From an uncultured Lachnospiraceae bacterium (GTDB taxonomy: Bacteria > Bacillota > Clostridia > Lachnospirales > Lachnospiraceae): DNA of 64,000 nt. Both the position numbers and the translations under genes were made by a program. The stretch is from positions 1 through 64,000 of the forward strand of contig CAMJAP010000002.1 of assembly GCA_946403625.1 (NCBI GenBank), in the 5' to 3' direction. The notes below the pieces were generated by a model. That model searched no databases and was not told the DNA's origin. It saw only the letters and a program-made list of their open reading frames with translations. Positions 3,237 through 40,459 of this stretch are shown piece by piece. Positions within the stretch are counted from its first letter, which is position 1. Each line of letters opens with the position of its first letter.

Positions 3237-4874
3237 ATGTCAGCACAGTTGAAGAAATCTCTGGTGGTTCAGGGGAGTATATTGGCGATCGCGGGGCTGA
3301 TCACAAAAGTGATCGGTTTTATTTATCGTATCCCGATGGCCAATATCATGGGCAACACCGGAAACGGTCTGTATTCGGTGGCTTTCGGTATCTATAATAT
3401 CGCGCTGACACTTTCCTCTTACAGTATGCCGCTGGCCGTCTCCAAACTGATGAGTGCGAGACTGGCAAAAGGGCAGTATAAGAATGCGTATCGTTTGTTC
3501 CGCTGTGCACTGATCTTTGCGATCATCACGGGAACGATCGCTTGTGCGGCACTGTTTTTCGGAGCAGAGGCTTTTGCAAAGATGTACCAAAAGCAGGGGC
3601 TGGAATCGCCGCTGCGTGTGCTGGCGCCGACGGTCTTTGTTGTTGCGCTGTTGGGAACCTGCCGCGGCTTTTTCCAGGGACACCGGAATATGGTTCCCAC
3701 CGCAGTTTCGCAGGTGATCGAGCAGATCGTCAATGCGATCGTGAGTGTGGTGGCGGCATCGGCTTTTGTGCGCATTGCCGCCGAGCAAATGAGTGTAAGC
3801 GATCCGGGGCTGGCAGAGACCGCAGAGGCATCGGCGGCGGCAACCGGCGGAACGCTGGGGACCTTTGCCGGAGCATTCACGGCACTTCTTATGTTTGTGA
3901 TCATTTCCCTGAGAAGACAGAAAGCACGAAAGATCGAGTTGAGCGGTGATGATCTGGCGGATGAAGATTATGCGCTGATCACCAGGGCGATACTGTTAAC
4001 AGTATTCCCCGTGATCCTGAGCCAGACCATCTATCAGATCGGTTATACACTGGATGATCTGATCTTCGGTAATCTCATGGTAGCAAAGGGTTATGAAGAG
4101 GTGGCGGTCACCAGTATGCAGGGTGTGTTCAATACCCAGTACAATCAGATGGTGAACCTGCCGGTGGCGATCGCGACGGCGATGGCTTCGGCGACACTGC
4201 CCAGTATCGTGGCTTCCTTTGCAAGAGGCGAGATCGACCGCGTGAAGGAAAAGATCTCGTCGGTTTTGAAAGTAAATATGCTGATCGCCATTCCGGCAGC
4301 AGCAGGGCTGGCGGCATTGGCAGAGCCGGTCATGGGTGTGCTGTTCCCGCGCCTGGGTGATTATATGCCGATGGCGGTGATGCTGCTTCGTACCGGATCC
4401 ATCGCCGTTGTTTTCTATGCACTGTCCACACTGACCACTTCGATCCTGCAGGGCAGCGACCGTATGCGGCAGCCGGTGATCCATTCGGCAGTATCCCTGG
4501 CAATCCATGTGGTGCTGGTTGCAGCGTTAACGAAGTATACGGATCTGGGTGTGTACGGCCTGACCATCGGTAATGTCACCTTCCCGCTGCTCGTATGTAC
4601 ATTGAATTGCCGCAGCGTGATCAAGCGCGTGGGTTATCGATTTGAATGGAAAAATACCTTTATCAAGCCGGCTGTGGCAGCGATCGTTATGGGCGGTGCG
4701 GCATTTGGTATTTATTCGGCATTGGAAGAAGTGATCGGCATGCCGGCTGCTATGCTGGTGGCGATGATTGCGGCAATATCGATCTATGCCGGTATGCTGC
4801 TGGTATTGAAGGCGGTAACCCGCAGTGAGCTGAAGGCAATGCCGTTGATCGGGCGGTTCTTCCGCAAAAAATGA
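3237..4874 (+). CDS. polysaccharide/lipid II flippase family protein (SpoVB/MATE-like)
   Basis: Many TM segments; N-term GSILAIAGLITKVIGFIYRIPMANIMGNTGNGLYSVAFGIY characteristic of SpoVB-like flippases. Confidence 0.85.
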   Translation: MSAQLKKSLVVQGSILAIAGLITKVIGFIYRIPMANIMGNTGNGLYSVAFGIYNIALTLSSYSMPLAVSKLMSARLAKGQYKNAYRLFRCALIFAIITGTIACAALFFGAEAFAKMYQKQGLESPLRVLAPTVFVVALLGTCRGFFQGHRNMVPTAVSQVIEQIVNAIVSVVAASAFVRIAAEQMSVSDPGLAETAEASAAATGGTLGTFAGAFTALLMFVIISLRRQKARKIELSGDDLADEDYALITRAILLTVFPVILSQTIYQIGYTLDDLIFGNLMVAKGYEEVAVTSMQGVFNTQYNQMVNLPVAIATAMASATLPSIVASFARGEIDRVKEKISSVLKVNMLIAIPAAAGLAALAEPVMGVLFPRLGDYMPMAVMLLRTGSIAVVFYALSTLTTSILQGSDRMRQPVIHSAVSLAIHVVLVAALTKYTDLGVYGLTIGNVTFPLLVCTLNCRSVIKRVGYRFEWKNTFIKPAVAAIVMGGAAFGIYSALEEVIGMPAAMLVAMIAAISIYAGMLLVLKAVTRSELKAMPLIGRFFRKK

Positions 4875-4880
4875 TTTTTC

Positions 4881-4920
4881 TTCCGGCCTTTCTCCTTCGG
4901 GGGGAAGGGCGGATGAGGGG
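4881..4920. repeat. REP-like palindromic element, copy 2
   Basis: ccggcctttctccttcggggggaagggcggatgaggggt; inverted arms and end shared with copy 1. Confidence 0.6.
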
Positions 4921-4930
4921 TATCAAAAGA

Positions 4931-7264
4931 ATGAGACTTAGCGATTTAAAAAAAGGCGAAAAAGCAAAGATCACAAATGTTGGCGGAGAGGGCGCTCTCA
5001 GGCAGCATTTTTTAGATATGGGACTGATCCCGGGGGCGGATGTGGAACTGGTGAAGTTTGCGCCGATGGGAGATCCCGTAGAGTTTCGTGTATACGGCTA
5101 TGAGTTGACCCTGCGTCTGGCGGATGCGGAGCAGATCGATGTCGAAGAAATCAAGGCATCGGAAGAAGAGAATGCACCGAAGAAGAGCCGCGTTCGTAAA
5201 GCGGAGCATCCGGGACTGGGTGAGGAAGGCCGCTATCACGAAAAAGAAACGGAAAATCCTCTGCCGGAAGGAACGCAGCTGACCTTTGCGTTGGTCGGCA
5301 ATCAGAACAGCGGTAAGACCACCCTGTTTAACCAGCTGACCGGATCGAACCAGCATGTGGGTAATTTCCCGGGGGTTACGGTAGACCGTAAGGATGGTGA
5401 GATCCGCGGGCAGAAAGGAACACTCATCACCGATCTGCCGGGAATCTATTCCATGTCCCCCTATACCAGTGAGGAGATCGTTTCCAGAGATTTTGTTCTG
5501 AAGGAAAAGCCCAAGGCGATCGTAAACATCGTGGATGTGACCAGCATCGGGCGCAATCTGTATCTGACCATGCAGCTGTTGGAAATGGGATTGCCGATGG
5601 TTGTGGCGCTCAACATGATGGATGAGATGATCGGCAACGGCGGCTATGTGGATATCAACGCAATGGAAGCGATGCTGGGGGTGCCGGTGGTGCCCATCTC
5701 GGCAGCCAAGAACGAAGGCGTGGACGAATTGGTACATCATGCACTTCACGTGGCAAAGTATCAGGAGACGCCGCAGGTGCAGGATTTCTGTGACAGCACC
5801 GATCACGGCGGCGCCGTACACCGTTGCATTCACGCAGTGATGCATCTGATCGAAGACCATGCGGTAAATGCCGGGATTCCCGTGCGTTTTGCGGCAGCCA
5901 AGCTGATCGAGGGAGACAACCTGCTTTTGGAACAGCTGTCACTGGAACAGAACGAAAAAGAGATGCTGGAGCACATCGTGCTGCAGATGGAAAAAGAACG
6001 TGGTATGGATCACAGCGCTGCTATGGCGGAGATGCGCTATGCCTATATCAACAAGGTGTGCGAGCGCTGTGTGGAAAAGCCGGCGGAAAGCAAGGAACAC
6101 ATCCGCAGCCGTAAGCTGGATAAGGTGCTGACCGGAAAGTATACGGCGATCCCGGTGTTTGTACTGGTAATGGCAGCCGTGTTCTTCCTGACTTTCGGAT
6201 TGATCGGACCGTTTTTGCAGGACCTGCTGGCAGCGGGGATCGGCAAACTGGGGGAACTGGCGGATGGCATGATGGAGACGGCGCAGGTCAACAGTGCCGT
6301 GCGCAGTCTGGTGATCGACGGTATCTTTGAAGGCGTCGGCAGTGTCGTGAGTTTTATGCCGGTGATCGTGACGATGTTCTTCTTTTTATCCATTCTGGAA
6401 GACAGCGGTTATATCGCGAGAGTGGCTTTTGTGATGGATAAACTGCTGCGAAAGATCGGTCTGTCCGGACGAAGCATTGTCCCGATGCTGATCGGCTTTG
6501 GCTGTACGGTGCCGGCGGTTATGTCCACACGAACCCTGCCTTCGGCGAGAGACCGTAAGATGACGATACTCCTGACACCGTTTATGTCTTGTACGGCAAA
6601 ACTGCCGGTCTACGGATTTTTTGTAAGTGCCTTTTTTCCGGAGTACAGCTGGATGATCATTACCGGGCTGTATCTGCTGGGGATCGTGACGGGCATCATC
6701 GTATCGCTGCTCTTCAAAAAGACCCTGTTCAAGGGAGAGGCGGTTCCGTTTGTGATGGAGTTGCCCAACTATCGTATGCCGGGGGCAAAGAATGTGTTGC
6801 AGCTTCTGTGGGAGAAGGCCAAGGATTTCCTGCAGCGTGCCTTTTCCGTGATCCTGATCGCGACCATCGTGGTCTGGTTTTTAAAGAGTTTTGATCTGCG
6901 TTTCGAAATGGTAACTGACGCGCACGAGAGCATCCTGGCAATGATCGCCGGCCTGTTCGTACCGCTGATGCAGCCGCTGGGAATGGGGGATTGGCGCATT
7001 ATCACTGCGCTGGTGAGCGGATTTATGGCAAAAGAGAGCATGGTCTCTACGATGGAAGTGCTCTTTGCGCCGGATGGCGTGGCAGGTGCGATCCCGAACG
7101 CGACTGCGGCGGCGATGCTGGTATTCTCGCTGCTCTATACGCCCTGTGTGGCAGCAGTGGCATCCATCCGTCGGGAACTCAGCACCAAGTGGGCGGTCTG
7201 CATTGTTTTGTGGCAGTGCGGTATCGCCTGGATCGTGGCGTTTCTGGTACGCTTGCTGTTTTAG
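4931..7264 (+). CDS. feoB: FeoA-FeoB fusion ferrous iron transporter
   Basis: N-term FeoA domain (MRLSDLKKGEKAKITNVGGEGALRQHFLDMGLIPGADVELVKFAPMGDPVEF) then G domain ALVGNQNSGKTTLFNQLTGSNQHVGNFPGVTVDRK. Start moved from ORF 4871 because the first 20 codons are repeat sequence. Confidence 0.94.
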   Translation: MRLSDLKKGEKAKITNVGGEGALRQHFLDMGLIPGADVELVKFAPMGDPVEFRVYGYELTLRLADAEQIDVEEIKASEEENAPKKSRVRKAEHPGLGEEGRYHEKETENPLPEGTQLTFALVGNQNSGKTTLFNQLTGSNQHVGNFPGVTVDRKDGEIRGQKGTLITDLPGIYSMSPYTSEEIVSRDFVLKEKPKAIVNIVDVTSIGRNLYLTMQLLEMGLPMVVALNMMDEMIGNGGYVDINAMEAMLGVPVVPISAAKNEGVDELVHHALHVAKYQETPQVQDFCDSTDHGGAVHRCIHAVMHLIEDHAVNAGIPVRFAAAKLIEGDNLLLEQLSLEQNEKEMLEHIVLQMEKERGMDHSAAMAEMRYAYINKVCERCVEKPAESKEHIRSRKLDKVLTGKYTAIPVFVLVMAAVFFLTFGLIGPFLQDLLAAGIGKLGELADGMMETAQVNSAVRSLVIDGIFEGVGSVVSFMPVIVTMFFFLSILEDSGYIARVAFVMDKLLRKIGLSGRSIVPMLIGFGCTVPAVMSTRTLPSARDRKMTILLTPFMSCTAKLPVYGFFVSAFFPEYSWMIITGLYLLGIVTGIIVSLLFKKTLFKGEAVPFVMELPNYRMPGAKNVLQLLWEKAKDFLQRAFSVILIATIVVWFLKSFDLRFEMVTDAHESILAMIAGLFVPLMQPLGMGDWRIITALVSGFMAKESMVSTMEVLFAPDGVAGAIPNATAAAMLVFSLLYTPCVAAVASIRRELSTKWAVCIVLWQCGIAWIVAFLVRLLF

Positions 7265-7294
7265 CATCGGGATCGTTCAGCACTATAGGACTTG

Positions 7295-7323
7295 TTGAAA
7301 ATCGGCATCAGATGATATATAAT
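7295..7323 (+). promoter_or_regulatory. sigma-A-like promoter
   Basis: TTGAAA - 17 nt - TATAAT. Confidence 0.6.
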
Positions 7324-7372
7324 CTAAGCGTTCGGCTTTTGGAAGAATATCTTTTAAGGAGGCTTTATTCGA

Positions 7373-7603
7373 ATGAGATCGGTAATTATTCTTATTGGAA
7401 TCGTGTTTGTGATCGGCTGGGCAGGCTGGATCGTTGTCAATCCGGATGGATACCGCACATATCTGCAGAATCATCCGGAGATGGACAAGACCGGGGCCTG
7501 GAGTGATGCATCGGATGCCAAACTTCGGATCACCGGAGTTCTGATCATTATTGTGATGCTTGCCTGCGCATTTATTAAACTGAAATTGGCCGGCGTGATC
7601 TGA
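7373..7603 (+). CDS. small two-TM membrane protein
   Basis: 76 aa with two hydrophobic stretches; AAGGAGG upstream. Confidence 0.65.
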   Translation: MRSVIILIGIVFVIGWAGWIVVNPDGYRTYLQNHPEMDKTGAWSDASDAKLRITGVLIIIVMLACAFIKLKLAGVI

Positions 7604-7622
7604 TCAGATATTGTTTTTTGGG

Positions 7623-7659
7623 GTGTCAACGGGGATGGTTCTCCTTGGCACTTTTTTTC
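7623..7659 (+). terminator. intrinsic terminator
   Basis: GTGTCAACGGGGA..TTCTCCTTGGCAC followed by TTTTTTT. Confidence 0.65.
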
Positions 7660-7814
7660 TGCCATCCACCCGGAGTTCCTATGCTACTCAGGATAGCAAT
7701 TATGACAAAACGGATTGCTGGAAGAAATTATCATGTTATTGTAAAATAAGAATGTGGGAATCCGTTTGTAAGAAGACAAACGAGAAGGACTTGCAGACAG
7801 GGGGATCGGGTTTG

Positions 7815-8756
7815 ATGGAAGGGCAGATTCGAAATATCCGTTTTTCACAATGTGACAGCCGGCAGGTGACGGAGGTACTGGATCGCGCATTGGATACCCG
7901 GGATAAATATTTGTTTACGACGAGATTTCGGGGGTGTCGGATCGGTTATCTCAAAGGCGAAGAGTATAAACGAATGAATCGCGGTGGAAATACGAGCCTG
8001 TGGTCACGACTGAAAGATACATTGCGGTCAGGATATTTTTGGATACCGATGCTACTTTCCGTTATGTTCGGGCTTGGCTGCATCGCATTTTATTACAAGA
8101 AGATCGGTGAGCCGCTTTTTTCATTTTGGCCGTGTTTTGATATATTTATTGTCCTAATCTGTATTTGTATTTTCCCGGGACTTTTCGGAGCTGTTGAAGT
8201 ACCGGCCTATTGGGGAAAAAAGAAGGATATGGTACTCTGGGAAAATCGAAAGGATCATAGACATCATTTGCTGACAACACCGGTATTTTTCAGATTTTGC
8301 AAAGAACCGCTGATATCCTCGAAGGCAACTTTCAATTCGCAAACGAAGCTTCTCAGCGACCTGTATCTGGAAGCAGCAAGGGATCTTTCATGGTTGCGGT
8401 GTTTATGTCTGATCTCAGAAAAGATCAAGCCGATGGTGGAATCATACGGTGAGGAGAATATCGAGATTGAGATCCTGGCGGATGACGGATGCAATGAGGA
8501 GGATCGTAACGGTAATTATACGATCGTACTTAAGGGATGCGACCGGGAAGATGCGGATACCGTAATTCCGATGGATGCGCAGGCAGAGGAACGGTCTTTT
8601 GAGTTGCCCTTTGTGATTGGAGAGAAGATCGTAAATAAATATCATAGTTTCGGTATTTTGGATTTTTCAATCCTTGACCGGCAGGGCGAAAAGGTCATGA
8701 AAAGCGAGATCCTGCGTGATACGGGAACAAGCGGTAACGAAGGCACAGAAGAATAA
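7815..8756 (+). CDS. uncharacterised paralogous membrane protein, copy A (short form)
   Basis: Start at ATG 7815 after GGGGGAT; shares N-term DSRQVTEVLDRALDTRDKYLFTTRFRGC, MVLWENRKDHRHH, DLSWLRCLCLISEKIK and YHSFGILDFSILD with copies B-F. Confidence 0.8.
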   Translation: MEGQIRNIRFSQCDSRQVTEVLDRALDTRDKYLFTTRFRGCRIGYLKGEEYKRMNRGGNTSLWSRLKDTLRSGYFWIPMLLSVMFGLGCIAFYYKKIGEPLFSFWPCFDIFIVLICICIFPGLFGAVEVPAYWGKKKDMVLWENRKDHRHHLLTTPVFFRFCKEPLISSKATFNSQTKLLSDLYLEAARDLSWLRCLCLISEKIKPMVESYGEENIEIEILADDGCNEEDRNGNYTIVLKGCDREDADTVIPMDAQAEERSFELPFVIGEKIVNKYHSFGILDFSILDRQGEKVMKSEILRDTGTSGNEGTEE

Positions 8757-8760
8757 ATAG

Positions 8761-10152
8761 ATGATGAATGAAGAGAAGAATAAAATCGAATACTCCCGAT
8801 ATGACAGTCAGACCGTAACCGAGGCTCTGGATTATGTTCTGGATACCCGGGATGAATTTCTTTTTGCCACTATGCTGAAAGGATGTAAATGGGGATTTGA
8901 TCGCGGGGAAGACAGCCATATAGAGAATACAAAAGGGGCTTTGAATCTGAAGTGGAATGGTCTGCTGCAAGATCCGCAGTATACGATTGAAGAGAACGGG
9001 AACAACCATAAGGGCGCGGGAGATAAGAACAGGAATAAGTTTCTTCAAAAGGTCACCTGGCAGGCCGTGCTGTGTTTGATCTTGTGGTACTGGTCGGTCC
9101 GGTTCTATTGCACTTATACGGAAATCTCTATTTTTGAAGCGCAGTTCCGTGGTTTGATCCTGTTTGAGGCAGTTGTTTTTTTGGCGATGATTGCGATTGT
9201 ATATTTTTCCAAGTTGAAAAAACACAGTCAGCCGGTATTTGATGGGAAAAACAGGGATATGTTGATCTGGCATAAGAAAGAAAGCGGGATCAAAGGGGGA
9301 TTGCGCAGGCTCTTGAATAGGATCGGGAGAAAGAGTACATGGCATGCGATCCTCTGTATCGTTCCGTTGTGGCTGTTGATCATCGGTTTTAAGATGGGAG
9401 TATGGGCGTTTGAATCCTGGAGAGTTTTTGTTTATCTGGTTAAAAATATTTTTCATAACTTCCTGTACTCGTTGCCTGCTTTGATCAGCTGTTTTGTTTT
9501 TTACAAGAGTTTTTTCGGAAACTATCGTTTTTCCATTCAGGATATAACCGGGCAGGATATGGTGCTTTGGGAGGACCGGGCAGATCATAAACGGCATGTA
9601 TGGACGAAACCGTTATTCTTCGGATGCTTTACCAGAGCGAAAATGTTTGACAATATGCAAAAGAAGAATGCGGGTGTGAAGCATATTTCGGGACGCCTGC
9701 TGGAACTTGCCTGTGATCTTTCCGCAAGTCGTTATTTCAGCTTGCTTTCGGAAGAGATCCGGAAATTTACGGAAGAATATCGTGAAGGAAATATGGAGAT
9801 TGAAATCACCGCAGGAGAGGGATGCAATGACATCGATGGCGGTGGCGAATATACGATCCGGATCACGGGGGAGAAGGGAATGGATCCGGACTCGATCGTT
9901 CCCGTGGAAAGCGAAAAGAATACACGATCTTTTACGCTGCCCTACAAGATCGGAAAAAAAGTGGTGCAGGATTTTCGGCGGTATGGAGTATTACGTCTGA
10001 ACGATATGGATGATCAGGTTCGTAAGGCAGGAGAATACTTCAGGTTTCATAAGTCAGAGATGAAGAAAAATCTGAGAAGTTACGGAACAAAGGAAACAGC
10101 CGAAATTTTTCGCAGGCTGGACAGAATGGATATTTTTACAGATACGGAATAG
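8761..10152 (+). CDS. uncharacterised paralogous membrane protein, copy B (long form)
   Basis: DSQTVTEALDYVLDTRDEFLFATMLKGC; two TM modules (RDMLIWHKKE and QDMVLWEDRADHKRH); 4 nt after copy A. Confidence 0.82.
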   Translation: MMNEEKNKIEYSRYDSQTVTEALDYVLDTRDEFLFATMLKGCKWGFDRGEDSHIENTKGALNLKWNGLLQDPQYTIEENGNNHKGAGDKNRNKFLQKVTWQAVLCLILWYWSVRFYCTYTEISIFEAQFRGLILFEAVVFLAMIAIVYFSKLKKHSQPVFDGKNRDMLIWHKKESGIKGGLRRLLNRIGRKSTWHAILCIVPLWLLIIGFKMGVWAFESWRVFVYLVKNIFHNFLYSLPALISCFVFYKSFFGNYRFSIQDITGQDMVLWEDRADHKRHVWTKPLFFGCFTRAKMFDNMQKKNAGVKHISGRLLELACDLSASRYFSLLSEEIRKFTEEYREGNMEIEITAGEGCNDIDGGGEYTIRITGEKGMDPDSIVPVESEKNTRSFTLPYKIGKKVVQDFRRYGVLRLNDMDDQVRKAGEYFRFHKSEMKKNLRSYGTKETAEIFRRLDRMDIFTDTE

Positions 10153-10165
10153 AAAGAAATAAAAA

Positions 10166-11140
10166 ATGAAAGAGATCATTTATTCAAAACTGGATAGTGA
10201 AAAAACGACACTTGCAATGGATAATCTTCTGGATTTCCGGGATGAATATTTGTTTGCAACTCTTTTTGAGGGATGCAGAAAAGGGTATGTTGCAGGAGCG
10301 GAATACCAAAAGAGAAAACTGCGCAAGAAGCCGATCCTGAATGCAGTGTTGTGGATCTTCGCAGTTTGGGGCATAGTCTTTGGGCTGGAAATTAAGATGG
10401 ATCTGATGGAGCCGCAGCAAGCCATACACGATGCGGTGTGGATTGCCGGTATCTGTGCGATCCTTTACTGGATTTTTTTGAGCGCACGATCGATCCGCTT
10501 TTTGGGGAGAAGCTGGTATGCGCATCCCCACGGAATTTATAATCATGATCTGATCCCGGAAGAACGATTGGATCATCGTTATCATCTTATGATCAAGCCG
10601 GTATTTTGCGGCGCCTCAGTGATCCGGGCAAAGCGGCGGGTAAGGAAGGCGCGGAAGGATAAACAAAGGGAAGAGGAGCAACAACTGTCCGGAAAACTGT
10701 ATGAGTGTGCTTATGATCTGTTCGTTGTACGACAACTGATCCGCATCTCGGAAGAGATCCGGCAGTTAGAGGATCGATACGGAATCGATTTTATGGATGT
10801 TCAACTGCTCGTAGATAATAATAAGAGAACCTGGGAATGGGATGAGGTATACAAGATCAAGCTCACGGCAAAGATTCCGGAAGCGGAAGATACGGTAATC
10901 CCGACGGAGAAAGCCGAAGAGACAAAGGTCTTTGATCTGCCGTATGAGGCCGGATTGGCAGTAGAAAAGAAATACGGAAAGAATAAACGGATGGATCTGT
11001 CGGTATTGGACAGCGTATACTATGATGATATCAAGCACAATTTCGGTATGTATAAAAGGGCGATCAAAAACCGGATGCGTACGATGGATAAGGAGAATCG
11101 GCCCAAAGTGACGACGGCGATGGAAAAAGTAATGTTCTGA
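10166..11140 (+). CDS. uncharacterised paralogous membrane protein, copy C (short form)
   Basis: DSEKTTLAMDNLLDFRDEYLFATLFEGCRKG plus family C-terminal region. Confidence 0.8.
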   Translation: MKEIIYSKLDSEKTTLAMDNLLDFRDEYLFATLFEGCRKGYVAGAEYQKRKLRKKPILNAVLWIFAVWGIVFGLEIKMDLMEPQQAIHDAVWIAGICAILYWIFLSARSIRFLGRSWYAHPHGIYNHDLIPEERLDHRYHLMIKPVFCGASVIRAKRRVRKARKDKQREEEQQLSGKLYECAYDLFVVRQLIRISEEIRQLEDRYGIDFMDVQLLVDNNKRTWEWDEVYKIKLTAKIPEAEDTVIPTEKAEETKVFDLPYEAGLAVEKKYGKNKRMDLSVLDSVYYDDIKHNFGMYKRAIKNRMRTMDKENRPKVTTAMEKVMF

Positions 11141-11182
11141 ATCTTTGGGAACCATTAGAAAAGATACAGGGGGGAGAAGCGT

Positions 11183-12115
11183 ATGAATGAAACCAATCTT
11201 AAGATCATCTATTCGAAATGTGACAGCAGGGAAGTTACGGAAGCAATGGATTTTCTTTTAAATACCAGAGATGAATTATACTTCAATAAGATTTTTTCGG
11301 GTTGTAAATTCGCATGTGTCAACGGCGGGAACTATAACCAGTCGGAGATCCGTATGAAAGGGAATAAGTTTCCGGATTTGAAGAAATTGCTGGCAACAAA
11401 ATTTTTCCGGATCTCGATGCTGGTGAGTTTTCCGATCTGCATTTTTTCGTTCGTGGATTCCATCCTCAGCCGGAAAAGTTTGGTCGGTGTGCTCTTTTTG
11501 TTGATCATCTGGTACGCCGTATATTGGAACTGGTTTAGTACCGATACGATTCCGATCTATCAGGGGCCGGAAAAGAATATGTTGCTTTGGGAGAACCGCG
11601 AGGATCATAAAAATCATTTGTGGTGCGTTCCGGAATTTTATCATTTTTTCAGTATGATCGCCCGTTATAATTTTTTTAAAGCCGGTGAATGGGGGATCAA
11701 AGAAACCGGAGACCGTTATGCGGAAGCGGCGAGAGATCTTTCCTGGTTAAGATGCGTATGTCTGATTTCGGAAGATATCCGCAATTTTGCACAGTTGTAC
11801 GGAGAGGAAAATGTTGCGGTGGAGTTCCGCGGAAGTGACGGGGAATGTACCATCGATCTGACCGGTATGCGGATCGGAGCTTCCGACACGGTTGTTCCGG
11901 TGGAGGAACAGGCGGGCAAAAGATCCTTTACCGTACCTTCTCTGATCATAGGCAAGGTGGCAAGAATATATCGGGAACAGGGGATTCTGGATCTGAGTGT
12001 TCTTGATGAACGATATGCTGCTGTCGAGGCATCGCATATCCTGGACGGAAGAAGGAGAACGGAGATCGATTATTCCAAATTATTGGCAGGCAAGGATCAG
12101 GAGAACAGGATATAA
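11183..12115 (+). CDS. uncharacterised paralogous membrane protein, copy D (short form)
   Basis: CDSREVTEAMDFLLNTRDELYFNKIFSGC; MLLWENREDHKNHL; DLSWLRCVCLISEDIRNF. Confidence 0.8.
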   Translation: MNETNLKIIYSKCDSREVTEAMDFLLNTRDELYFNKIFSGCKFACVNGGNYNQSEIRMKGNKFPDLKKLLATKFFRISMLVSFPICIFSFVDSILSRKSLVGVLFLLIIWYAVYWNWFSTDTIPIYQGPEKNMLLWENREDHKNHLWCVPEFYHFFSMIARYNFFKAGEWGIKETGDRYAEAARDLSWLRCVCLISEDIRNFAQLYGEENVAVEFRGSDGECTIDLTGMRIGASDTVVPVEEQAGKRSFTVPSLIIGKVARIYREQGILDLSVLDERYAAVEASHILDGRRRTEIDYSKLLAGKDQENRI

Positions 12116-13444
12116 ATGGATAATACGAAGAATAAGATTACATATTCGAAATGTGACAGCCGTAAGGTGAAGTACGGGCTGGATCATATTTTGCATTTTC
12201 GGGATGAATATTTATTTGCCACATTATTTAAGGGCTGCAGACCGGGCTGGGATCGCGGTGATGATTGTTATTATGTGCCGCATAGCCAAAACGACAGTAT
12301 TTTGGACAGGATCGGGAACTGGCTTGGCCACGTGATCACCTGTGAGCTGGTGTTGTGTGTGGTCGTATGGTATTGGCTGGTCTATTTGTATTTGGAGTAT
12401 GACTGTAATTTCTATGCATACGAAGAGGGATATTGGTCGTTCTTTTTCTTTATGGGGGCACTTCCCCTGGTTCTGATCTGCATTTTATATGCTTTTCGTT
12501 TAAAAAAATACAGCAAACCGCTCTGCGATGATATCGGACGCGACCGTTTGCTTTGGCAGGAAAAAGATAACCGGATCCGGGGAATATTGCGTGACATTAC
12601 TTACCGGATCCGAAGAAGAAGCACATGGCATACCGCGTTGTGCGTTGTACCGCTTTGGGCTTGCGCGATGGGAATGTTTTTGTACTATGGCGTACTGAAT
12701 GTCAGAGCGGATAAAGACTGGTCGATAGCGATCTCACTGATGGTGGTTATCTATGTGGTTTATAAACGTTTCCTCGGGGCACATCGTATTTTGCTTCGGG
12801 AAGGAGAAGAAGATCCGGATCTGGTGCTTTGGGAAGTAAAAGCAGGACATTTGGGGAATAAACCTGTATTTTTCGGCCTTTCCGGGAGGAAAGCGCTTCG
12901 CAACTTGACATCCCTGAAGCACGCTTATCAAACGACATCGGCTGCAAAGGAATTGCTGGATCGTGCGAGGGATCTTTCGTGGCTTGACTGTCTTTGCAGT
13001 CTTTCGGAAGAGATGAAAAAATTTACGAAAGACTACGACGAAGAAAATGTGAATATCGAGATCCGGGACGGTATCGGCTGTAATGACAACGAGCGTATGG
13101 GGAAGTTTACGATCCTCCTGACGGGAGCCGTAAATGCAGATCCGGATTCGATCGTTCCGACCGAGGTAAAAGTGAAAACGCAGTCATTCACATTGCCGTA
13201 CATTATCGGGAAAAAGACGGTTCAGATGTATCGTCAAACCGGAATACTGGATCTGAGTATGTTGGATGAATGTTTTGCGGAAACGGGCATATTTCTGAAG
13301 GAGCATAAGGACAGCATCAAAAAAAGTCTGGCGATGTTCGGTGCGGCGAAGAATGCTGCCATTGAGCGCTATATGGACACAGAGATCTTTACGGAAGTAA
13401 TTTCCGACTATCCGGATACGGAGGATGTACGCAACTTAAAGTAG
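12116..13444 (+). CDS. uncharacterised paralogous membrane protein, copy E (long form)
   Basis: CDSRKVKYGLDHILHFRDEYLFATLFKGCRPG; TAAATG junction with copy D; double TM module as in B. Confidence 0.82.
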   Translation: MDNTKNKITYSKCDSRKVKYGLDHILHFRDEYLFATLFKGCRPGWDRGDDCYYVPHSQNDSILDRIGNWLGHVITCELVLCVVVWYWLVYLYLEYDCNFYAYEEGYWSFFFFMGALPLVLICILYAFRLKKYSKPLCDDIGRDRLLWQEKDNRIRGILRDITYRIRRRSTWHTALCVVPLWACAMGMFLYYGVLNVRADKDWSIAISLMVVIYVVYKRFLGAHRILLREGEEDPDLVLWEVKAGHLGNKPVFFGLSGRKALRNLTSLKHAYQTTSAAKELLDRARDLSWLDCLCSLSEEMKKFTKDYDEENVNIEIRDGIGCNDNERMGKFTILLTGAVNADPDSIVPTEVKVKTQSFTLPYIIGKKTVQMYRQTGILDLSMLDECFAETGIFLKEHKDSIKKSLAMFGAAKNAAIERYMDTEIFTEVISDYPDTEDVRNLK

Positions 13445-13615
13445 CAAAAAAGACAGATCGGAGTGGTGGAAGCATTCTTTGATGCAGGGTAGAATAATAA
13501 AATGTAGAGAAGGCGGAACGGGATGAAAAAGGAGTGGGGCCCCATAAAAAACATCATCCGAAACCGTATCTTTACAGTAACCTGTCAACCACTATTTTTC
13601 AGAGGGGAGATTTTA

Positions 13616-14458
13616 ATGAAAAACAAAACAAACAAAGTAGCACGAAAGATCACAGCGTTACTGGCCGGTGTTATGATCTCCGGGCAGCTGGCAACGCCGG
13701 GGGCTGCAATTTTGGCCCACGCAGAAAGCGGAACCGTGGATTACAGTCTGGAACAGGATGTGTTGGCCGGACTGATAGGTCCCGGCGGAGCATTTGTAGC
13801 AGAAGGCGGAGCCGGTGAAAGTGGCGGTAGTACCACCGCGGTAACATCCGGAACGATCACTACAGGATTCGATCTGGTGATCACATCGAACAACAAGTAT
13901 TATGCAAGCGTTACCAATGCGGTTGATAAGCTGGTAAAAGCGCCGCAGGTATCAAACGGAAAGAAGTATACCACATGGACTACGGTGTTGCCGTATACCA
14001 ACAGCAGCACCAAGACAGATCTTACTATTTCCGTCAATATGAGTCTTCGTGATGTCGGTAATTATCGCTCAGAAGCAGAATTGTTGAAGAACGCCGTATT
14101 CCATATCAGCGGCACCCATCGCGGTAAAAAAGTGGATCGCTATGTTTCCTATCGCAGTGAGGTGAAGAATCTGCGCGAGGCTGTGCAGAGAGCGAAGGCA
14201 GCGCAAGTTCAGCTTTATTGCAAGTCAGGAAAAGCTTTACATGGCGACTATATGATGGTGATCGACGGTTATGTGCTTGTTTGGACAGACGAGCTGGGCA
14301 GAATTGCGGTGCGTACAAATCAAAAATTGGATTTGCCGTATAATGGTAATGGAGAAGTACGCGTAAAGATCACAAATCTTAAGGCGGTGGATCCGTATGC
14401 TTCGGGAACATACAATTATGTGTGTGATCTTTCGGGCAAAATTACCGTGGTGAAATAA
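13616..14458 (+). CDS. secreted protein 1 (signal peptide, shared C-terminal domain, no CBM)
   Basis: Start at ATG 13616 after AGAGGGGAG; signal peptide MKNKTNKVARKITALLAGVMISGQLATPGAAILAHA; C-term aligns to secreted protein 2. Confidence 0.75.
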   Translation: MKNKTNKVARKITALLAGVMISGQLATPGAAILAHAESGTVDYSLEQDVLAGLIGPGGAFVAEGGAGESGGSTTAVTSGTITTGFDLVITSNNKYYASVTNAVDKLVKAPQVSNGKKYTTWTTVLPYTNSSTKTDLTISVNMSLRDVGNYRSEAELLKNAVFHISGTHRGKKVDRYVSYRSEVKNLREAVQRAKAAQVQLYCKSGKALHGDYMMVIDGYVLVWTDELGRIAVRTNQKLDLPYNGNGEVRVKITNLKAVDPYASGTYNYVCDLSGKITVVK

Positions 14459-14483
14459 TCACATCGCAGAAATGCAAAAACAG

Positions 14484-14516
14484 CACCTGTCAACAGATCG
14501 TTGGCAGGTGTTTTTT
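14484..14516 (+). terminator. intrinsic terminator of secreted protein 1
   Basis: CACCTGTCAA-cagatcg-TTGGCAGGTG TTTTTT. Confidence 0.8.
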
Positions 14517-14708
14517 ATGTCTCGCAACTTAGAGTAGCAATAAAGACAAATCGGCTTGGTAGAAGTGCACTTCTGTCTGTCGTAGAATGTGGGATGTAAC
14601 GGAAAACGGAACAAAATGAAAAATTGAATGGGTACCCATAAAAAATGTCATTTGAGACCGTATCTTTACAGTAACATAAAATTACAATTTTTCAGAGGGG
14701 AGATTCTA

Positions 14709-15860
14709 ATGAAAAACAAAGCAAGAAAAGCAACTCGTAAGATTACAGCGTTACTGACCGGTGTGATGCTTTCCGGACAGTTCGCAACCGCAGGTACGGC
14801 GATCTACGCCCACGCAGAGAGCGCAGCAACACTGGATTATTCGGTAGAGCAGAATGTATCCAGCTCCTGGTACGGCGGCTGCTGTGCAGAGATCGTCCTG
14901 ACCAATCTGGCAAACACAGAGACCGAAGGCTGGAAGATCACATTCAGCACAACGGACAAGATCAGCAATCTTTGGAACGGAAGCATTACGGAAACGATCG
15001 ATCTGGGAGATTCGTATCAGTACACCGTAGAGGCGCTGAACTATAACAGTGTGATCGCAGCCGGACAGCGTATTTCCATCGGCTACATCGGTGAAGGCAA
15101 TGACCACGATCTGCTGGATGTAAAAGCAGATATGATCTATGCCGGTGGCGAAACTGCAGCGGAAGCAGAGACCGAAACCGAGACAGAGACGGAAACAGAA
15201 ACTGAGACAGAAACCGTAGTGGAAACCGAACTTCCGGCAGTATCCGGAACGATCTATACAGGATATGGTCTGAAGGTTACAGAGGATAATCCGTATTACG
15301 AGGATCTGGTGTATTCTATCGATGAGTTGTTACAGGTAAAAGAAGTAGCAAACGGAAATCAGTATACCGAGTGGACCACGATCTGCCCGTTTGGCAACGG
15401 CGAGAGCTGCACGGATCTGATCGTAGCGATCAATATGGATCGTAACAAAATGCCCGGTTCCTTTACTTCGGAGGAAGAGATGCTGAGAGGATCCGTATAT
15501 CGCATCAGCGGTACCTATCGTGGTGAAACAGTGGAACGCTATATTGCATATTGCGAGGAACTGGATTCCCTGCGCGGTCGTCTGGAAAAGGCAAAAACTC
15601 TGCAGGTTCGTAATTACTGTGCAACCAATCAGGACCTGTACGGAGACTATATGCTTAAGATCCAGAAAGATCAGATCCTTGTTTGGACAGAAGAACTGGG
15701 CAGAATCGGTGTGATTACCGATTCCGCAGCAGATCTGCCGTATTCCGCAAGCGGAAACATTCGCGTACATATTACGGATATTCAGTTTGTAGATCCGTTT
15801 GCTACGGGAGAGTACAATCCGAATCTGTGTGTATCCGGTAATGTATCGGTAGTGAGATAA
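14709..15860 (+). CDS. secreted protein 2 with CBM2-like domain, (TE)n linker and shared C-terminal domain
   Basis: Signal peptide MKNKARKATRKITALLTGVMLSGQFATAGTAIYAHA; SSWYGGCCAEIVLTNLANTETEGWKITF..ISNLWNG..YTVEALNYNSVIAAGQRISIGYIG resembles CBM2-type cellulose-binding modules. Confidence 0.75.
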   Translation: MKNKARKATRKITALLTGVMLSGQFATAGTAIYAHAESAATLDYSVEQNVSSSWYGGCCAEIVLTNLANTETEGWKITFSTTDKISNLWNGSITETIDLGDSYQYTVEALNYNSVIAAGQRISIGYIGEGNDHDLLDVKADMIYAGGETAAEAETETETETETETETETVVETELPAVSGTIYTGYGLKVTEDNPYYEDLVYSIDELLQVKEVANGNQYTEWTTICPFGNGESCTDLIVAINMDRNKMPGSFTSEEEMLRGSVYRISGTYRGETVERYIAYCEELDSLRGRLEKAKTLQVRNYCATNQDLYGDYMLKIQKDQILVWTEELGRIGVITDSAADLPYSASGNIRVHITDIQFVDPFATGEYNPNLCVSGNVSVVR

Positions 15861-15886
15861 TCGTTTCGCCAAATAAACAACGGCAG

Positions 15887-15932
15887 CACCTGTCAACGGG
15901 AGGGGGATCCTTCGGTTGGCAGGTGTTTTTTG
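15887..15932 (+). terminator. intrinsic terminator of secreted protein 2
   Basis: CACCTGTCAAC...GTTGGCAGGTG TTTTTT; same stem as 14484-14516. Confidence 0.8.
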
Positions 15933-16048
15933 CTACTTTGGGGAGCCGTCTTGTAATATCCGGGTGGTTGAAGCTGTCGCGGTTGTGGGATAGAATAATA
16001 GTGTAGCGAAGTCGGTACGCAAGAGAAAAGATAATGACAGAGTAATGT

Positions 16049-17014
16049 ATGAAGAGTAAGATCATTTATTCAAAACATCATTTTGAGAAAATCATGGACA
16101 CGCTGGATCGGGTTTTGGCTTTTCGGGATAAATATCTGTTTGCAACCGTATTGAAAGGCTGCGAGCGGGGATATCTTCCCGGGGCGGAGCCGGAGAACTA
16201 TTTTTGGGGTGAGATGGATCCGGTCAGGATGACGAAAGCGCAAAGAAGAAAGTACAGGATCTACACTTTCGCCTGGCTTTTACCGTTTCTGCTTCTGACC
16301 GTATTCCTGTGTTTGGGGTTTGGGATGGTAATGGCTCGAAGCGGAAAAGCAGAACCGTTGCTGCTGCTTTTTGGTGTGGGTGTGATTTTGTTTTGGGCCG
16401 CTGCTTATATGCAGACTTTGGCGGCAGCACCGCTCCGTATAGGCACTTGGCGCATGCATTCCTTTACAAAGCGTGAAGATCTTAAGGATCATGTAGGGCA
16501 CAGCCCTGTGTTTTACGGCTTTTGCAGGATCAAAGCCAAAAAACAACTGGCGGCTGGAAAAAAAGCACTGGAAACCATCGATGTCCTGAGTAAAGAGATA
16601 GGGACGCTGCATATTTTAAGTTACTATAGTGAATTTTCAGATTGGCTTAGGCAAAACGCCGGGGTGTACAGAGGAGAGGATCTGCAACTGGAGATTACCG
16701 GAGGAAGAACTGAGGGGAGTACAGCCGCGAATTATAAGATCATCATCAAAGAAGCCGTTGAAACGGGACAGGATACGGTGGTTCCGGTAGATACGGAACC
16801 GAAAAGCTTTGAATTGCCTTATGATGTCGGGGCAGAGGTGATTCGAAAATATGAGCGGACCGGGGTGATGGATCTGTCCATACGGGATAAAGACTACTAC
16901 ACGCTGAAAAATACCTTCCAGCAGGCGAAAAAAAGGATCCGCCAAACGATGCTTGAGTGTGGAGTGGATGTAAATGCACCGGTGTTTCGTGAACTGGAGC
17001 AATTGAAATTTTAG
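16049..17014 (+). CDS. uncharacterised paralogous membrane protein, copy F (short form, divergent)
   Basis: YSKHHFEKIMDTLDRVLAFRDKYLFATVLKGCERG; DTVVPVDTEPKSFELPYDVGAEVIRKYERTGVMDLSIRD. Confidence 0.8.
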   Translation: MKSKIIYSKHHFEKIMDTLDRVLAFRDKYLFATVLKGCERGYLPGAEPENYFWGEMDPVRMTKAQRRKYRIYTFAWLLPFLLLTVFLCLGFGMVMARSGKAEPLLLLFGVGVILFWAAAYMQTLAAAPLRIGTWRMHSFTKREDLKDHVGHSPVFYGFCRIKAKKQLAAGKKALETIDVLSKEIGTLHILSYYSEFSDWLRQNAGVYRGEDLQLEITGGRTEGSTAANYKIIIKEAVETGQDTVVPVDTEPKSFELPYDVGAEVIRKYERTGVMDLSIRDKDYYTLKNTFQQAKKRIRQTMLECGVDVNAPVFRELEQLKF

Positions 17015-17083
17015 TCGGAAGGCAAATACGATTTGAAATTTTGGGGACTTTCGGGTAATATAGTGGAACGAGGTGAAAGAACT

Positions 17084-17320
17084 ATGCGCACGATGGATTT
17101 TAAAATGGAACGACCGGGCCTTTTGGAGGCGGGGCAGAAAGTAACGGTTACGGAAGGTCTGCTTCCGGGAAGTTACTACTATGTGATCGATCCGTCTCTG
17201 GCGATGTCAGCCAATTTCAAATTGAAGGACCGACTGTATGTCACCGAGGGCGAAGTGGAAAAGGTGGAGGAGACTCCGCGCGGATTCTATGTGACGGTTC
17301 GTTTCGACGACGGAAAGTAA
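17084..17320 (+). CDS. small hypothetical protein upstream of ridA
   Basis: 78 aa from ATG 17084; GAGGTGAAAG upstream. Confidence 0.6.
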   Translation: MRTMDFKMERPGLLEAGQKVTVTEGLLPGSYYYVIDPSLAMSANFKLKDRLYVTEGEVEKVEETPRGFYVTVRFDDGK

Positions 17321-17342
17321 AAGAAAGAGGAGGAATAAAAAG

Positions 17343-17720
17343 ATGATCAAGACAATCGCAACAGACAAGGCACCGGCAGCGATCGGGCCGTATTCACAGG
17401 CAAAGATCGCAGGGGATACCCTGTATGCATCCGGCCAGATTCCCATCAATCCGGCAACCGGCAATGTGGAAGCCGAGGGCATTGAAGCGCAGGCAGAACA
17501 GGCCATCAAGAATGTAGGAGAGATTCTGAAAGCAGCAGGTACCGACTATGCACATGTGGTAAAGACCACCTGCTTTTTGGCAGATATGGCGGATTTTGCT
17601 GCATTCAATGCGGTATATGAGAAATACTTTACCGAGAAACCTGCGAGAAGCTGTGTTGCAGTAAAGAGCCTGCCGAAGAATGTGCTTTGTGAAGTAGAAG
17701 TGATCGCATATCTGGGATAA
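17343..17720 (+). CDS. ridA: RidA family reactive intermediate/imine deaminase
   Basis: KAPAAIGPYSQAKIAGDTLYASGQIPINPATG; CEVEVIAYLG. Confidence 0.95.
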   Translation: MIKTIATDKAPAAIGPYSQAKIAGDTLYASGQIPINPATGNVEAEGIEAQAEQAIKNVGEILKAAGTDYAHVVKTTCFLADMADFAAFNAVYEKYFTEKPARSCVAVKSLPKNVLCEVEVIAYLG

Positions 17721-38736: not shown

Positions 38737-38842
38737 AAAATTTTTCCATACATCCATAAAATCCTTATACCATTTCCGTATCCTAATCAGAAACAGAGAT
38801 TACACGGTCAATGGGGCCGTGTCAAAACGGGAGGAAATCATT

Positions 38843-40459
38843 ATGAGAAAAAAATGGTGGAGAGGATTTGCAGGAGTATCATTTGCGACAGCTGCCTTAC
38901 TGAGCGCGTGCGGAGAAACAGGCGCCTATTCCGGAATGGGTGGGAAATCGGCAGGTGCAGCGGCTGGTGTTGAAGTACAAGCGGATTCGTGTTCTGTGAG
39001 CACGAGCTATGCCGGCGCGTGTTATGAGGCGGAATATTATGATACGGAAGAGTATGACAGCATCGAGGAAACCGGATTTGCATCGGTGTCATTGAGTCCG
39101 TTATCTACCTTTGCAGCAGATGTAGATACGGCATCGTACGCGAATGTTCGAAGGATGATCCGGGAGGGCTATCGGGCAGAAGATATTCCGACCGGAGCGG
39201 TTCGCGCGGAAGAGATGATCAACTATTTCAGTTATGATTATGACGGACCGGAGAACGGAGAGCCTTTCGGAATCAATGCGACGATTGCTGAGTGCCCTTG
39301 GAATCAGGAGAATCTTTTACTGCGGTTGGGCTTGCAGACGGAAGCAGTCGATTTTTCGCAGGCAGGAGACAGCAACATCGTATTCCTGATCGATGTGAGC
39401 GGATCGATGTCGGATGCGAATAAACTGCCGTTACTGCAGCAGTCATTCGGATTGCTGGTCGATGAGCTGGGACAAAAGGACAGAGTATCTATTGTGACTT
39501 ATGCCAGCGGAAATCAGATCGTGATCGACGGTGTGCCGGGAAATGAGAAGCAGACGATTATGGATGCACTGAACGGTCTGCAGGCAGGGGGCTCTACCAA
39601 CGGCGGATCTGCATTGGAAATGGCATATCAGGTTGCGGAACAGTACTTTATTGAGAATGGAAACAATCGTGTGATCATCGCTTCGGACGGTGACTGGAAT
39701 GTAGGAATTACCAGCCAGAGCGAGATGAGTGATCTGATCAAGAAGGAGAAAGAGAGCGGCATTTACTTATCGGTACTCGGATTTGGTATGGGAAATTACA
39801 GTGATTCCCGTATGCAGACACTGGCAGATGACGGTAACGGAAACTATGCGTACATTGACTCTTTGAATGAGGCAAAGAAAGTATTGGTAGAGGAACTCGG
39901 CGCCAATATGATTACGGTAGCGGATGATGTGAAGCTGCAGGTTGAGTTCAATCCGCTGTATGTTGCAGAATACCGACTGATCGGTTACGAAAACAGACGA
40001 CTGAATGCGGAAGATTTTGCGGATGATACCAAGGATGCCGGAGAGATCGGCGCAGGACACAGTGTGACTGCATTGTACGAACTGGTTCCGGCCGGTGCAC
40101 AAACGGAAGAAAATGAGCAGGCAGAAGATACGGAATTGAAATATCAGGAAGCCACACTTACCGAAGAAGCAATGAACAGCAATGAGTGGCTGACCCTGCA
40201 GATCCGCTACAAGGAGCCGGGCGAGCAGGATTCCAAGCTGTTGGAATACCCGATCGGTGCAGAGAATGTAGTCGATGCTCCGGAAAATGATTTCATCTTC
40301 TCGGCAGCAGTGGCAGAGTTTGCGATGGTATTGAGTGACAGTGATTACAAGGCAGATGCAAGCTATGACCACATTTTGGCAGAACTTTCCCAGCTGGATC
40401 TGAGTGATGAATATCGCGCAGAGTTCAAGACGCTGGTAGAGACCGTAGAACAGAATTAA
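38843..40459 (+). CDS. von Willebrand factor A-domain lipoprotein (YfbK-like)
   Basis: Lipobox LLSAC; PLSTFAADVDTASYANVRRMI; IVFLIDVSGSMSDANKLPLLQQS. Confidence 0.93.
   Translation: MRKKWWRGFAGVSFATAALLSACGETGAYSGMGGKSAGAAAGVEVQADSCSVSTSYAGACYEAEYYDTEEYDSIEETGFASVSLSPLSTFAADVDTASYANVRRMIREGYRAEDIPTGAVRAEEMINYFSYDYDGPENGEPFGINATIAECPWNQENLLLRLGLQTEAVDFSQAGDSNIVFLIDVSGSMSDANKLPLLQQSFGLLVDELGQKDRVSIVTYASGNQIVIDGVPGNEKQTIMDALNGLQAGGSTNGGSALEMAYQVAEQYFIENGNNRVIIASDGDWNVGITSQSEMSDLIKKEKESGIYLSVLGFGMGNYSDSRMQTLADDGNGNYAYIDSLNEAKKVLVEELGANMITVADDVKLQVEFNPLYVAEYRLIGYENRRLNAEDFADDTKDAGEIGAGHSVTALYELVPAGAQTEENEQAEDTELKYQEATLTEEAMNSNEWLTLQIRYKEPGEQDSKLLEYPIGAENVVDAPENDFIFSAAVAEFAMVLSDSDYKADASYDHILAELSQLDLSDEYRAEFKTLVETVEQN

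Follow-up and report, generated by a model that had tools for sequence, protein, structure and literature searches.

SLATT-type two-transmembrane (TM) effector domains have a TM hairpin with helices on either side and a cytosolic soluble part. Orphan immunity arrays have been described from the T6SS clusters of V. cholerae, where their genes match the immunity genes of known effector-immunity pairs and where one described array keeps a partial effector gene (PMC5361080). In gut Bacteroidales the rAID orphan immunity genes also match known effector-immunity pairs, and they neutralise an effector (PMC12247911). Here we describe a run of paralogous membrane protein genes in rumen Lachnospiraceae. 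The family is apparently undescribed and lineage-restricted within the genomes searched, and it is a clear case of genes that duplicate, move and diverge far faster than their genomic surroundings, in a gut group represented here mainly by metagenome assemblies.

The window is a 64-kb part of a 69-kb contig (C2) from an assembly of 3.52 Mb that is 99% complete (genome G000). Its same-genus relatives, among them the related genomes G032, G021 and G017, are MAGs of Lachnospiraceae that come from the rumen of sheep and deer or the omasum of sheep; L-numbers denote loci in this set. The family, which we named M, has six members in the window (A to F, 7815-17014; 310-463 aa, 25-40% identical). As the first-pass annotation had proposed, these are true paralogues: each of the six ORFs is intact at its stated position, and blastp relates all pairs, the best E being 8e-93 for B and E. 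They lie in the interval between feoB (4871-7264) and ridA (17343-17720) together with two other genes, S1 and S2, and all eight are on the + strand. Copies A (7815-8756, 313 aa), B (8761-10152, 463 aa), C (10166-11140, 324 aa), D (11183-12115, 310 aa) and E (12116-13444, 442 aa) follow one another with gaps of 4, 13, 42 and 0 nt, the spacings of 4 nt (A-B) and 0 nt (D-E) given at first pass being exact. The notion of a six-copy array holds for the number of paralogues but not for their contiguity, as only five adjoin and F (16049-17014, 321 aa) is set apart by S1 (13523-14458) and S2 (14628-15860). A small membrane ORF of ~75 aa, read from the sequence, lies between feoB and A (7374-7601, + strand), with the best sigma-70-like promoter match (11/12; 7295-7323) upstream of it. 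Directly after S1 is a strong terminator-like hairpin (14482-14512); both signals are consensus matches only. The GC content of the block is 44-48%, compared with 51-56% in the adjoining segments.

Topology was predicted from hydropathy and charge counts. A, C, D and F showed one hydrophobic hairpin and E showed two. Three segments were called in B, which we read as two hairpins from the alignment with E and from the resemblance of the second hairpin to the first (blastp E 4e-5). The central TM segments that had been annotated as shared are correct in that all copies have a TM hairpin, but there are two architectures, one with a single hairpin (A, C, D, F) and one with two (B, E). As predicted by hydropathy, M proteins are N-in/C-in membrane proteins. 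The predicted extracellular loops are mostly 4-19 aa long and the inner loops are strongly basic; the inside segments comprise ~50-80 aa at the N-terminus (130 in B before the first called segment) and ~185-230 aa at the C-terminus. No signal peptide was seen in the M proteins.

The strongest features common to A-F are an N-terminal YSK..DS/..D..L..RD..F helix and a C-terminal DTVVP...F.LP...(L/M)DLS..D segment. Among the best-conserved columns of 14 members are S and the R-D pair in the N-terminal region and P and D in the C-terminal one. Two further motifs reported as shared, DLSWLRCLCLISEEIR and (M/V)LWE, were found in A and D and roughly in B and E, but not in C and F. When orthologues are compared, conservation is lowest in the hairpin, whereas the N- and C-terminal segments, predicted to be cytoplasmic, are conserved. 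Identity in the hairpin versus the other parts was 24% versus 48-57% for A, 33-44% versus 60-82% for the L040 group and 42% versus 44-70% for C. The AlphaFold model of D (pLDDT 76.6, pTM 0.69) begins with a short strand and a helix, followed by the TM hairpin, a pair of long helices and a three-stranded meander with helices. In a distant member on contig C47 of G021 (L117:8723-9817) both terminal parts are present, but the central hairpin is missing and the protein ends in a hydrophobic stretch. Given that the hairpin is the least conserved region and that this member lacks the central hairpin, the soluble part appears to be the constant unit of the family and the hairpin its anchor. The neighbours of the distant member are IscB-like and TnpB-like by eye.

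The description of M as an uncharacterised membrane family with divergent expansion was borne out by searches with the M proteins against Pfam, NCBIfam, PADLOC and PHROGs, which gave scattered weak matches, none convincing, and against PDB sequences, which gave no convincing match. A Foldseek check for a characterised family, run with the D model against PDB and BFVD, gave no match at E <= 0.001. A likeness to USP4-type ubiquitin hydrolases, seen with one profile (E ~0.01), was gone with a second profile and was treated as chance. No immunity model of PADLOC or Pfam resembled the M proteins, which also had no Pfam match to SLATT even at E 0.5 and no PADLOC match to two-TM defence effectors. 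The genes beside the array gave no recognisable toxin domain or effector remnant, and no LXG protein was found in the four genomes. Among the recurrent neighbours of M genes, which were read by eye and in some cases scanned with Pfam, there was no nucleotide cyclase or sensor, and no SLOG gene was seen. A contig scan of genomes with E as the query gave no match and a second contig scan matched three rumen or omasum MAGs. Viral contigs scanned with D gave no match, and tblastn against plasmid and phage sequences came back empty.

Members of the family were found in 4 of the 35 genus genomes examined (six-copy profile, E <= 0.001), which belong to one clade of a rumen Lachnospiraceae genus. The most similar feoB genes are also those of these four, with 89-100% identity over the part searched compared with <=72% elsewhere. 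A wider profile gave one extra marginal match in the genus (G012, E 5e-4), its sequence being unlike a member by eye. In wider sampling, genomes of the family (299, and 397 with another profile), the order (392) and the phylum (399) yielded only two marginal matches (E 8e-4 and 1e-3), in searches that score the top few candidates per genome and may miss very distant relatives. Apart from its six intact genes, G000 has no further intact M copy in a search of its own genome, the sole extra being a deletion remnant on contig C121. G032 has six intact copies, one that is frameshifted and one tail fragment, G021 has five and the divergent L117 member, and G017 has one.

A tree paired A, C and D with G032 genes as orthologues, A less firmly, and supported a group of L036/L040/L042-type members, which are single-copy and 63-68% identical; F has no clear orthologue in the other genomes. 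The orthologue of A (L033:8662-9603, - strand) shows 45% identity, that of C is a solo gene elsewhere in G032 (L035, 50% identity) and that of D lies at the same locus with a frameshift, which could be an assembly error. We also asked whether every homologue stands as a single gene on its own. This is partly so: away from the feoB-ridA site the copies are mostly solo, with one further tandem pair on contig C47 of G021, and this weakens the idea of an obligate partner though not the idea of a function. That pair (L041:7969-10289, two divergent genes on the same contig as L117) stands in a run that includes a weakly spore cortex-lytic enzyme-like protein. Copy-level events include gain, loss, frameshift, a deletion remnant, relocation and carriage on a mobile contig. 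Because copies are gained, lost and moved singly, each probably works alone and not as the subunit of a fixed complex. The same one-by-one loss, frameshift or relocation of orthologues disfavours an obligate hetero-oligomer of A-E.

The window is collinear with contig C139 of G032 over ~60 kb, and syntenic real genes are mostly 75-98% identical. For the M genes, the most divergent of those retained in the collinear segment, the longest match on C139 has 26-45% identity; the intact part of the frameshifted D orthologue reaches ~65%. For A and its orthologue (L033) dN was 0.51 and dS 1.28, for C and L035 0.36 and 1.27, and for the feoB orthologues 0.024 and 1.21. The similar dS values fit the same divergence time, and at this equal synonymous divergence the dN of the A and C pairs is 15-21 times that of feoB. 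With a dN/dS of 0.28-0.40 for the C and A pairs, that is below 1, relaxed constraint and diversifying selection account for the rate equally well. Among the remaining M pairs, most approach dS saturation and were left uninterpreted.

The interval from feoB to ridA/ribD (window 4871-17720; L033, L150, L151) is a hotspot, and no two of the four related species have the same cargo there. The interval holds M plus S in G000; M, a flavodoxin-like gene, a histidine kinase, an ABC-2 transporter and S2 in G032; a pilin-like gene, a sensor and a regulator in G017; and one unrelated gene in G021. At non-orthologous M loci the recurrent neighbours besides S are two-component, ABC, nucleotidyltransferase-like and radical-SAM-like genes. 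One protein of an uncharacterised family recurs beside M at two sites (L037:5037-6023 and L039:10037-11023); an Imm49-like identity for it was a guess, unsupported by Pfam and NCBIfam. The M copies on contig C47 of G021 are accompanied by TraG and Rep3 genes, marking a mobile contig.

Several of the solo loci have further neighbours. An SUKH-1 gene (L039:2033-2599) and a truncated SUKH-1 gene (11176-11526) lie near a solo M gene, and the G000 site orthologous to L039 (L043) holds the M deletion remnant only. Two MutS-domain-V genes (L042:14253-17410) are directly upstream of another solo M gene with a gap of 27 nt, and the M gene at L037 is preceded by what looks by eye like a MutS2 fragment. 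Genes of vWA-type lipoprotein-like proteins occur at variable sites. The syntenic G032 contig has nothing that matches the one in the window (38819-40459), and a gene of related appearance (L043:2436-4160) lies beside the M remnant on C121.

That the block holds a duplicated pair of secreted-looking proteins was also confirmed, as S1 and S2 are true paralogues with 48% identity. S1 carries an S domain, with an OB-like fold as a tentative assignment, and S2 combines a CBM_2 domain (E 2.1e-13), a Thr/Glu-rich linker and an S domain. S2 shares CBM2 (PF00553) at residues 73-158 (50.9 bits versus a cut-off of 24) and differs by its C-terminal S domain, for which there was no convincing Pfam match; the S domain model (pLDDT 84.7) gave weak OB-fold-like matches in PDB. 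An S2 orthologue (77-81% identity) stands beside M genes at the feoB-ridA site in G032, and an S1-like gene lies ~3.5 kb from an M gene on contig C299 of the same genome. S is thus near M at the feoB-ridA site of two species (G000, G032) and at C299 only and is missing from the remaining M loci, and some genomes without M do have S-domain proteins. Probability estimates for this association, which depend on few events and an assumed coverage, were given no weight. Since S adjoins few M loci, the S proteins are no obligate partner of M, and the functional link to secreted proteins suggested by the first-pass annotation is weak. The S domain is common to secreted and membrane proteins in the genus (L086, L087, L090, L088, L089, L092), and one S-domain gene is next to a secG-like gene in three genomes. 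In G021, L093:15234-19604 encodes a secreted-looking protein of 1456 aa with a CBM2-like N-terminus and, by eye, lectin-like repeats.

Only tentatively do we infer what the M proteins do, namely that each acts on its own as a cytosolic binding protein tethered to the membrane and is under selection of the conflict type, like the genes of orphan immunity arrays. The N-terminal strand-helix and the C-terminal alpha/beta segment are predicted to face the cytoplasm, and the one or two poorly conserved TM hairpins would merely anchor the proteins to the inner membrane face. The likeliest role of M proteins would then be to bind and neutralise variable foreign proteins that reach the cytoplasm or the inner membrane face, candidate targets being toxins of competitor strains or phage proteins, and the divergent copies would together supply a range of specificities, in the manner of orphan immunity arrays. 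The predicted topology, the variable hairpin, the fast dN, the birth and death of copies, the hotspot cargo, the mobile contig and the SUKH-1 immunity-type genes at one locus all suggest such conflict. Against it stand the findings of no toxin, remnant or LXG protein and of no immunity-model match, a dN/dS below 1 and SUKH-1 neighbours at one locus only. To our knowledge, large membrane-tethered cytosolic immunity proteins are also not the usual form, which counts against an immunity function. Of the signalling or conflict role originally put forward, conflict is the part favoured by fast evolution, copy turnover and mobile copies, although neither a toxin nor a partner was found. The fuller claim, that M proteins are apparently undescribed membrane-tethered cytosolic neutralisers with a new fold, forming a clade-specific conflict array in rumen Lachnospiraceae, we consider unlikely.

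Conserved cytoplasmic parts on a variable anchor would also be expected of lineage-specific membrane-tethered regulators or signalling adaptors, whose cytoplasmic domain senses or binds a cellular protein and whose duplicates have different partners. The solo C orthologue is flanked by pyrG and by the gene of a GGDEF-type response regulator, and an AraC-like gene adjoins the L036 copy (by eye). However, no regulatory neighbour recurs across M loci beyond generic two-component genes, and the excess of dN over that of feoB is unusual for internal regulators, and we rate this reading as fairly unlikely. The two-TM anchor with a cytosolic domain, the patchy distribution and the mobile-contig copies could also belong to membrane effectors of phage defence by abortive infection, the cytosolic domain being the sensor and the hairpin the membrane-damaging part. 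That is quite unlikely, given that PADLOC gave no match, that no co-encoded sensor or nucleotide cyclase was recognised and that the hairpin, the expected effector, is the least conserved part.

The tight spacing of A-E, with S1 and S2 in the same block, the S2 orthologue by M genes at the same site in G032 and the S1-like gene near M on another G032 contig would suit one envelope machine or complex in which M proteins are the membrane subunits, for example one linked to fibre attachment via the CBM2 protein S2. We regard this as improbable, because S accompanies M at so few sites and occurs in genomes without M, and because the supposed subunits are not co-retained, D being frameshifted and C moved in G032 and G017 having one M gene with no S near. 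Frameshifted and deleted copies, the hotspot location, the mobile-contig copies and a GC content below that of the flanks might instead mark cargo or selfish genes of mobile elements and hotspots, of little benefit to the cell and in steady decay. Most copies are intact, however, and the dN of orthologues remains well below dS after dS has exceeded 1, which argues that a coding function is maintained and makes this account improbable. The cell-surface role first proposed, as a receptor or adhesin family, would agree with membrane proteins that have secreted-looking neighbours. It is highly improbable, since the predicted outside loops are so short, no signal peptide was seen and conservation falls on the parts predicted to be cytoplasmic.

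If M is an immunity or defence family, its existence would hint at a weapon or phage threat in the rumen that has gone unrecognised. Otherwise M is a well-framed orphan family, and its single-copy L036/L040/L042-type members are good subjects for structure and knockout work.

Among described systems, M resembles SLATT in its TM hairpin, flanking helices and cytosolic soluble part, but it differs in having no Pfam match, no partner cyclase or SLOG gene seen and a hairpin that is not conserved. The M copies are divergent, lie in a variable interval and are gained and lost between close relatives, as expected of an orphan toxin-immunity array. We nevertheless do not class M with the orphan immunity arrays, because it shows no convincing match to an immunity family and no toxin was recognised beside the array. 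Unlike the V. cholerae arrays, that of M has no recognised secretion cluster, effector, remnant or known immunity homologue, and unlike the rAID genes M has no match to effector-immunity pairs and its neutralising role is putative. With the V. cholerae arrays M shares runs of immunity-type genes in a variable interval that differ between close relatives and stand without a cognate effector (PMC5361080). With the rAID genes it shares the occurrence of several divergent copies in one gut bacterium and a fast rate of non-synonymous change (PMC12247911).
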